Source of the DNA: Sulfurimonas sp.
Lineage (GTDB): Bacteria > Campylobacterota > Campylobacteria > Campylobacterales > Sulfurimonadaceae
DNA length: 64,000 bases
Assembly (NCBI RefSeq): GCF_041583195.1
Contig: NZ_JBFHGL010000001.1
Coordinates: forward strand, 1-64,000
Direction of reading: 5' to 3'
Each line of letters starts with the position of its first letter. The stretch's first letter is position 1. Of this stretch, positions 47,478 to 49,004 are shown in pieces. Below the pieces are notes generated by a model. The model was not told the DNA's origin, did not search any database, and saw only the letters and a program-made list of their open reading frames with translations. A program made the translations under genes and the position numbers.

Positions 47478-47816
47478 TTAATATTCGTCATTTGTTTTTG
47501 AACTCTCAATATATACAAGACCTACTGAGAACATGTTCGCAATTAATGCACCTATTGTTAATGCAATTGCCCATTCTAAATTACCAATAACTTGAAGATA
47601 TATAAAGGCTGGAATAAGGTGTAGATCCGCTACTAGTGAAGATGCCAAAAGTTCTGCTGAAAGTAAATTTCTTACACCAATTTTTAAAAATGTTGAAACA
47701 AGATTTAAACTTGCCGCTACAAAAAGTGCCACTGCACTGTGTTCATATAAAAAACCTGCGATCGATGTTAAACTCATTAATGAGAAAAACACATATATTA
47801 CTTTACCCCAATCCAT
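47478..47816 (-). CDS. small four-helix membrane protein, unknown
   Basis: This 112-residue protein is almost entirely hydrophobic, with four probable membrane helices (about 5-22, 28-45, 55-75, 85-105). There is no catalytic motif. I do not recognise the family. A long structured leader precedes it, and it lies between leuS and secF on the same strand. Confidence 0.7.
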   Translation of the reverse strand: MDWGKVIYVFFSLMSLTSIAGFLYEHSAVALFVAASLNLVSTFLKIGVRNLLSAELLASSLVADLHLIPAFIYLQVIGNLEWAIALTIGALIANMFSVGLVYIESSKTNDEY

Positions 47817-48032
47817 ATCTTTTCCTTTAATTTATTTCATAAATTCAAGGGAACCTTTTCCCCATTATTTAATCACTGTAACTGAAGTAATTCAGTTACC
47901 TACGTTATCACTTGGATTTCTTCGGCAGAAAGCCCGCGACACTTGTGTCGCTTTTATTGTTAAAATTTACTGAGTGATTATACTAAAAAATTGTTAAGGG
48001 GTGACTGAAAAGTTTGGATGATGTAGAAAACT
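47817..48032. other. structured intergenic element
   Basis: No gene fits here. Hairpins are GGGAA/TTCCC (49-62 of 47800s), GTAACTGAA/TTCAGTTAC at 47878-47899, and GCGACAC/GTGTCGC at 47936-47951. The last is followed on plus by TTTTATTGTT, as in an intrinsic terminator. An 8-base inverted repeat, TAATCACT at 47870-47877 with AGTGATTA at 47973-47980, encloses the last two. On minus, TATAAT at 47977-47982 would give the 112-residue protein gene a leader of about 150 bases. It could be a regulatory leader or a plus-strand small RNA. I recognise no known riboswitch or RNA class. Confidence 0.5.
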
Positions 48033-49004
48033 CTACATCACACCAGATTCAAACTGAGCACGCATGCGCTCTTTTTCTGCTTCTCTTTGAGCTTTTTTTG
48101 CTAGTTTAGCATGGTAATCTTTAACTGAAAAACCAAACCACATAAGGATTGGAGATGCAACAAAGATAGATGAGTAAGTACCTACAACTACACCTACAAG
48201 CAATGTAAATGCAAAGGCATGAATAATCTCACCACCAAAAATGAATAGTGTAAATACAACAAAGAACGTAGTTAACGAAGTTAAAGTTGTACGAGCAAGT
48301 GTACGAGTAACTGACTCATTAATACTCTCTGCTAGATCAGAGTTTCTGTTGTTTGTAACACCCTCACGGATACGGTCAAATACAATGATTGTATCGTTAA
48401 GCGAGTAACCAAGAATTGTTAAAAGCGCAGCTAATACATCAAGGTTTACATCAAGTCCTACAATTGCAATTGCGCCAAGGGCAATTGAAACGTCATGAAC
48501 AAGTGCAAAAATAGATGCTACAGCAAAACGCCATTCAAATCTAAATGCTACATAGATTAAAATACCGATGGTAGCTAAGATTAAAGACATAACACCTTTT
48601 TCTCTTAACTCGTTTCCAACTTTTGGACCGACTATATCTACACGGCGGATCTCATAATTCCCTGTACCTTTAAGAGCCTCACGAGTCACGTCACCTATAT
48701 CTACGGTTACACTTGCAGTAGTAGATTTCATACGAATCACTACCTCATCAGGTGCACCAAATTCTGTTATAGATGATCCGTTAAAAAGCTCATTAGACTT
48801 TAGTTTTTCACGCATATCATCTATAGGAGCAGTCTTGTCATACTTAACTTGTATAACAGTACCACCTGCAAAGTCAACACCGTAATTTAGACCTTTTGTA
48901 GCTAAAATAACATAAGAGCCAAGAACTAATACAATAGAAAGAATCATTGCAAGTTTTGACTTCCCCATAAAATTAAAGGTTTTCGTATATTTAAAAAATT
49001 CCAT
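48033..49004 (-). CDS. secF: protein translocase subunit SecF
   Basis: SecF pairs with SecD to use the proton gradient to pull proteins through SecYEG. GVDFAGGTVIQVKYD opens the periplasmic domain. Six membrane helices follow, with GYSLNDTIIVFDRIREG as the characteristic fourth-helix motif. It follows secD by 2 bases. Confidence 0.97.
   Translation of the reverse strand: MEFFKYTKTFNFMGKSKLAMILSIVLVLGSYVILATKGLNYGVDFAGGTVIQVKYDKTAPIDDMREKLKSNELFNGSSITEFGAPDEVVIRMKSTTASVTVDIGDVTREALKGTGNYEIRRVDIVGPKVGNELREKGVMSLILATIGILIYVAFRFEWRFAVASIFALVHDVSIALGAIAIVGLDVNLDVLAALLTILGYSLNDTIIVFDRIREGVTNNRNSDLAESINESVTRTLARTTLTSLTTFFVVFTLFIFGGEIIHAFAFTLLVGVVVGTYSSIFVASPILMWFGFSVKDYHAKLAKKAQREAEKERMRAQFESGVM

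Follow-up and report, generated by a model that had tools for sequence, protein, structure and literature searches.

Anatomy of the secF-DUF6394 spacer

We analysed a stretch of 64,000 nt from contig NZ_JBFHGL010000001.1 of a Sulfurimonas sp. (the window), and within it the 216-nt spacer that separates secF from the gene for a DUF6394 protein (47817-48032). The genes in this part of the window lie on the minus strand in the order secD, secF, DUF6394, leuS and lptE. The spacer adjoins secF (48033-49004) on one side and, downstream, the DUF6394 gene (47478-47816), which encodes a membrane protein of 112 aa (PF19931, E 5e-28). The -10 box of the DUF6394 promoter, TATAAT, is found on the minus strand at 47977-47982, and TTTTTnGTATAATC is kept 5' of the DUF6394 gene in congeners. 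From this sequence, the DUF6394 transcript is expected to start at about 47970.

The spacer contains a structured core of 84 nt on the minus strand (47870-47953), delimited with a covariance model (R1) and consisting of four helical regions, P1 to P4, and a tail. P1 (GCGACACAAGUGUCGC, 47936-47951) is a perfect 16-nt palindrome. It is followed by the P2 region (47917-47935), a GGGC-UUUCU-GCCGA-AGAAA motif that can form a 5-bp stem (P2) and a GG/CC pseudoknot, or an alternative 3-bp hairpin. P3 is a mini-hairpin with a GNNA-type loop (AAGUGAUAACG, 47903-47913), and P4 (GUAACUGAAUUACUUCAGUUAC, 47878-47899) had 9 bp in the repeat search. Between the core and the start codon there are two further minus-strand hairpins. 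Hairpin A (GGGAA-AAGG-UUCCC, 47849-47862) is the arrangement that would leave the Shine-Dalgarno sequence free. Hairpin B (UUCCCUUGAAUUUAU...AUAAAUUAAAGGAAA, 47821-47853; 15-nt arms, 87% complementary) pairs with the Shine-Dalgarno sequence of the DUF6394 gene, AAAGGA, which is located 6 nt from the ATG on the same strand (47823-47828) and is kept in leader copies. The 5' strand of hairpin B also takes part in hairpin A, making the two mutually exclusive (47821-47862).

An earlier, sequence-only reading of the window had described three hairpins in the spacer, and all three are present (47936-47951, 47878-47899 and 47821-47853). It did not include the pseudoknot-like motif at 47917-47935, the exclusive Shine-Dalgarno hairpins at 47821-47862, or the dispersed-repeat nature of the element. 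That reading also pointed to an 8-base inverted repeat (47870-47877 with 47973-47980) and noted that one of its arms would lie outside the transcript if the TATAAT were used. The repeat exists in the sequence, where it overlaps the promoter by chance: the 8-base complementarity is not fully kept in three other copies that are preceded by a promoter (L003, L009 and L014). The arm at 47973-47980 overlaps the conserved -10 box and so, as had been foreseen, is not expected in the RNA. Folding of the spacer was better than that of dinucleotide shuffles on both strands (z of -3.4 for plus and -2.2 for minus), and therefore folding energy alone cannot pick the strand. The thermodynamic fold of the DUF6394-leader copy by itself was not decisive.

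A family of structured elements placed before start codons

We aligned 18 cores (alignment A1) and modelled them as R1. The core of the DUF6394 leader scored 95.9 bits against R1 (E 7.6e-22); A1 includes this copy, and independent copies elsewhere scored up to 108 bits. The pairing in the alignment was well beyond that of controls. Standard pairs occupied 94.9% of cells compared to 77.6% in shuffled alignments, and the covariation score was 0.551 compared to 0.204 (shuffled) and at most 0.125 (slid). Two-sided changes were present in 20 of the 25 modelled core pairs; one P2 pair was entered one column off in these counts, which gives no advantage to the structure. The sequence-only reading had named compensatory changes in the stems as its own check, and this check was passed strongly.

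The changes were spread over the helices. All six modelled pairs of P1 had two-sided changes (92% of cells paired), as did both pairs of P3 (100%) and nine of the ten modelled pairs of P4 (93%). The P2 stem occurs as UUCCU/AGGAA, UUUCU/AGAAA, UUCCC/GGGAA, UCUCU/AGAGA and other variants. P3 has the consensus AAG[C/U]GNUA[G/A]CG with compensatory changes; the AGTGAT that had been proposed to pair elsewhere in an alternative fold is part of this conserved mini-hairpin. The pairing between GGGC and GCCGA was assessed in 161 widely collected cores. The pair formed by the second G of GGGC and the last C of GCCGA was standard in all 161, and A-U replaced it in 20, compared to 2.75 in shuffles (maximum 9). 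Because GGC/GCC crosses UUCCU/AGGAA, the two form either an H-type pseudoknot or two alternative pairings. The core also has conserved single-stranded positions. Departures from Watson-Crick pairing, read in the minus sense, comprised 97 G-U and 26 A-C (93 distinct copies, in alignments fitted to the model), an excess that is the pattern expected of selection on a minus-sense RNA.

The element is widespread in the genus and also occurs in other families of the order. A 22-base core motif was matched in 85 of the 135 Sulfurimonas genomes, its reversed-pattern control in none, and the loci that were found had the same architecture before many different genes. R1 had matches in 124 of the 135 genomes, and its strongest matches were within this genus. 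Across the order Campylobacterales, there were R1 matches in 136 of 399 genomes (26 of 87 genera), and in an even sample of the phylum in 36 of 249 genomes, all in a few families of Campylobacterales. Exact-pattern matches in named genomes were mostly in Sulfurimonas, and also in Sulfuricurvum and Sulfurospirillum. With permissive scoring, the highest copy numbers per genome were 58, 46 and 40; by the same scoring, the genome of the window has the DUF6394-leader copy and one weak copy. Two short-pattern matches outside the phylum were set aside as chance, one in Cohnella that reached only 24.6 bits with the model and one in a Clostridiales MAG that had no model match. There were no exact core matches in viral contigs, and a phage origin was rejected on this basis.

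The position of the element relative to genes was determined for 89 matches in named loci, taking 200 nt or less upstream of a start codon as the limit. Fifty were upstream of a gene in the sense direction only, 14 in the antisense direction only, 12 in both and 13 in neither; these counts rest on simple ORF calling, and orthologous copies among them are not independent. The genes behind the element, most of them named from N-terminal sequences, include nifU, ribH, nusB, hypA, dnaK, groEL, fabG, fabI, purS, secE, secG, hom, tpx, cysK, kdsB, clpX, prs, rpmF and others. These are unrelated housekeeping genes with no common function. P1 often begins 0-2 nt past the upstream stop codon. Other arrangements were tandem arrays and inverted pairs with a shared P1, and some copies lacked the Shine-Dalgarno module, were antisense, or were at convergent gene ends. 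Copies also occur in or next to genes for functional RNAs. One is inside RNase P RNA (L112:1501-1585), where ~130 nt are inserted into the loop that caps a variable helix of this class A rnpB. An inverted pair with a shared P1 is just before the 23S gene (L107:1501-1650) in four operons of one genome (G286; one was read and three were inferred from identical scores), and another is inside a 23S rRNA gene (L077:1419-1584), probably at a known intervening-sequence site.

No family in Rfam 15 accounts for the element. Scanning the whole window with Rfam 15 at the gathering score gave no match, as the sequence-only reading had anticipated in placing the spacer in no known class. Five loci with strong copies gave none except the host rnpB, and a permissive scan of the spacer gave chance-level matches only. 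6S RNA, SRP RNA and other known families were rejected accordingly. We found no earlier description of the element in the openly searchable full-text literature; for S. gotlandica, RepRanger gives only counts of predicted palindromes (PMC12306157).

Two exclusive hairpins at the Shine-Dalgarno sequence

In most leader copies, the core is followed by a module of ~45 nt that includes the Shine-Dalgarno sequence and the two exclusive hairpins. We analysed the segment 3' of P4 in 62 leader copies. It contains a strand, typically (U)UCCCUU and an AU-rich run, that has two possible partners, an upstream arm (hairpin A) and the Shine-Dalgarno sequence (hairpin B). Hairpin B was found in all 62 copies, and its upper stem had 7 and 4 compensatory changes in two length classes, compared to 0.6 in shuffles of each. 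Hairpin A had at least 6 bp in 50 of the 62 copies, compared to ~12 of 62 with a shuffled 5' flank, and its register in one length class had 7 compensatory changes compared to 2.3. Mean energies were close, at -7.8 kcal/mol for A and -6.6 kcal/mol for B, with A the more stable in 53 of 62 copies. When the leaders were folded in isolation, A was usually the preferred hairpin, with the Shine-Dalgarno sequence mostly unpaired (mean 0.78). A default ON state without any switching is therefore possible.

We looked for a conserved pairing between the core and this module and found none. Pairing of a P2 strand with the Shine-Dalgarno sequence was rejected as the link for a switch, because P2 varies (UUUCU, UCUCU) and the Shine-Dalgarno sequence is constant.

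The association was also examined in reverse, by collecting 30 loci with the module alone and inspecting the sequence upstream. A clear core was directly upstream in 22. Among the rest, four or five had a second structured core or a P4-like remnant, two were behind other repeats, and one was the opposite strand of a palindrome. The second structured repeat, CUUUAGUCGCCUCAGCGGCGCAAGCGAAG-[P4-like hairpin]-CGGACUAA, is an apparent three-way junction that precedes the same Shine-Dalgarno module in several leaders. It was seen at L258:1513-1597 (G000:C19:12269-12360), L287, L289, L274, L275, L153 and L069, and one degenerate copy is present in the window's own genome. Copies in Sulfurospirillum are without the module and often have a AGAGUUCU-GCA-AGAACUCU hairpin right after P4 instead; loci with this hairpin are L128, L133, L150, L151, L156, L167, L171 and L189.

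Insertion in some relatives only, and interpretation

We surveyed occupancy at 49 Sulfurimonas DUF6394 loci, of which 7 were filled by pattern and 42 were scored empty. One of the latter group (G008) was recognised by eye as an eighth filled site that the regular expression had missed, and two genomes (G052 and G001) have relics of the element at this site. A TATAAT lies within 70 nt of the ATG in 19 of the 42 sites scored empty, in most cases between -32 and -45, and the remaining sites are largely operonic and lack a promoter. At the four filled sites of the promoter type (the window's genome, L003, L009 and L014), the TATAAT is at -163 to -204, with an element of ~130 nt lying between it and the start codon. 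In a clade where the gene is operonic, secF and DUF6394 overlap as TAATG at empty sites (G019, G010, G021 and G049), and filled sites have the element exactly between stop and start (G012, G006 and G026). Mapping the filled state onto a gene tree of DUF6394 required 4 changes, at least 3 of them forced by well-supported branches (7 scored sites used), and a close sister pair differs, with G031 filled and G054 scored empty. Occupied and empty orthologous sites thus coexist, as with interspersed mobile repeats, and the pattern is what a formerly mobile element would leave.

The longest candidate target-site duplication was a 3-nt GTA/GTR repeat, at one site, and the loci that were read contained no recognisable linked mobiliser. 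The Y1 domain of RAYT proteins (PF01797) is present in 72 of the 135 Sulfurimonas genomes overall and absent from G000, G031, G004, G105 and G020, which carry up to 18 copies. Because the distribution of Y1 does not track the element, Y1/RAYT mobilisation was rejected.

The comparisons establish the family, its sense-strand structure, its siting ahead of start codons and, in some relatives only, its insertion between the ATG and a conserved promoter or at an overlapping stop/start; the account of translation control that follows is proposed. We think it probable that the spacer is one copy of a dispersed structured-RNA leader of Campylobacterales, encoded on the minus strand, in which the core is joined to a two-state Shine-Dalgarno module that sets translation initiation. 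The core would fold independently of context, and the module would decide the exposure of the Shine-Dalgarno sequence. With hairpin A formed (upstream arm with UUCCC), the sequence would be free and the gene translated; with hairpin B formed (UUCCC with Shine-Dalgarno), initiation would be blocked. Because A should form first during co-transcriptional folding, ON may be the default state, and B could form once the upstream arm of A is occupied or disrupted. The core might bias the choice between A and B, or might simply be an insulated spacer, allowing the element to be maintained where there is transcription. Copies may have spread by mobilisation. The sequence-only reading had offered a regulatory leader of the membrane protein. 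Its anatomy stands, with a minus-strand leader behind a conserved promoter, covarying helices and a module that sequesters the Shine-Dalgarno sequence, but the element recurs before unrelated genes and so is no leader specific to the DUF6394 protein. A more far-reaching proposal is a mobile riboregulator: an RNA cassette able to transpose into the space between cistrons, or between a promoter and its gene, that would supply both a Shine-Dalgarno sequence and a two-state translation switch of its own and place many unrelated genes of Campylobacterales under one common signal. We regard this as doubtful.

The dispersal and the diversity of downstream genes are accounted for equally well by the main rival, a purely selfish interspersed repeat of the REP, BOX or RPE kind. 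Its structure would serve its own transposition or its harmlessness in transcripts, and the Shine-Dalgarno module would serve survival between cistrons, without regulation. Tandem and inverted copies, insertions in rnpB and rRNA operons, the two relics, patchy occupancy of the DUF6394 site, unrelated downstream genes and a hairpin A that is usually favoured, i.e., constitutively ON, are all consistent with such a passenger. The passenger reading has more difficulty with the universal retention of hairpin B, which pairs the Shine-Dalgarno sequence in every platform copy with compensatory changes, and the sense-leader bias and the G-U bias towards RNA also argue against it; we consider it possible, if on the unlikely side. 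An orphan metabolite riboswitch, placed before many unrelated genes and responding to some signal in wide use, whether a nucleotide second messenger, an ion or a cofactor, is suggested by the conserved single-stranded positions, the pseudoknot-like motif, occasional tandem copies and the aptamer-plus-expression-platform layout, in which a covarying aptamer-like domain in the 5' leader is combined with an alternative platform (A/B) controlling the Shine-Dalgarno sequence. However, the downstream genes are not functionally coherent and form no regulon, there are antisense copies, and loss and gain occur between sister species. Given this incoherent gene set and the insertions in rnpB, 23S rRNA and an rRNA spacer, a classical metabolite riboswitch is less likely, and we judge it improbable.

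Hairpin B is short, AU-rich and positioned over the Shine-Dalgarno sequence, as in an RNA thermometer that would melt near growth temperature with the core as scaffold only. Such a device needs neither a conserved competing hairpin A nor a covarying core, and seems very unlikely. The sequence-only reading had also raised a terminator-like stem with a T tract, or a small RNA, on the plus strand. The plus-strand pattern of the P1 palindrome (47936-47951) followed by TTTTATTG is real. Its T tract, however, is the A-rich run before P1 read from the opposite strand, no plus-strand gene ends here, and the stem forms P1 of the element in the minus sense, rather than a plus-strand intrinsic terminator. 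The P1 arms vary freely, the genes on both sides and the conserved promoter are all read from the minus strand, the G-U excess belongs to the minus-sense reading, and most copies point the same way as the gene behind them (50 compared to 14), leaving a plus-strand terminator or small RNA scarcely credible.

The element shares features with several known systems. In translational riboswitches, a structured 5' domain is followed by anti-SD and anti-anti-SD alternatives. The Campylobacterales element appears similar in having a structured 5' domain and alternative Shine-Dalgarno hairpins, and differs in its lack of a known ligand or coherent regulon, its evident dispersal and its absence from Rfam 15. 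Like REP/BIME sequences with RAYT (Y1), it is a palindromic dispersed repeat found single, in tandem or inverted. REP hairpins are preceded by GTAG, and GUAG precedes P4. Unlike REP/BIME, the core is larger, multi-helix and with a pseudoknot, it prefers sense leaders, and many copies are in genomes without a Y1 match (e.g., G031, G004, G105 and G020). Rickettsia palindromic elements are repeats with palindromic sequence found inserted in functional genes and RNAs; the present element is also palindromic and inserts in a functional RNA, whereas the Rickettsia elements are not known to have a translation-initiation module and are of another clade and sequence. The BOX, RUP and SPRITE repeats of Streptococcus pneumoniae are described as short non-coding sequences, dispersed and extensively structured, that proliferated through intergenic regions and are sometimes transcribed in 5' regions, BOX being modular (PMC3049150). 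The Campylobacterales element is likewise a short, dispersed, structured, non-coding repeat, of other sequence and clade, and its bistable module sequestering the Shine-Dalgarno sequence of a downstream gene and its rnpB insertion are not described for BOX, RUP or SPRITE in the parts of that study considered here. Interspersed structured repeats and leaders that sequester the Shine-Dalgarno sequence are each known; as far as can be tested, their combination in one dispersed family is new.

A transcriptome study of C. jejuni reported essentially no metabolite riboswitch besides TPP (PMC3847290), and neighbouring genera have an abundant structured RNA family that is absent from Rfam. If the two-state module acts as its anatomy suggests, a selfish repeat would have become a portable translation switch at dozens of housekeeping genes per genome, and its gain and loss between sister species would be natural experiments. 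If the element is only a passenger, it would be a repeat that survives in operons, and even in RNase P RNA, through independent folding and its own ribosome-binding site.

Other repeats were seen at the same loci. Several hairpins of the element carry, in their apical loops, a recurrent mini-insert of ~20 nt, AGGTRCCCCTTGAGGGTAT: in the P4 loop at L048, L053, L055, L060 and L009, in the module at L062, L093 and L033, and in P3 at L036, as if it were a second, smaller hairpin repeat inserting into loops. At L139, L278 and L298, elements and genes are separated by further long palindromic repeats (e.g., GTTCCAATGCTCYGCGTTGGAAC ... CTCCCACGCAGAGC), and unrelated repeat families appear to use the same insertion zones.
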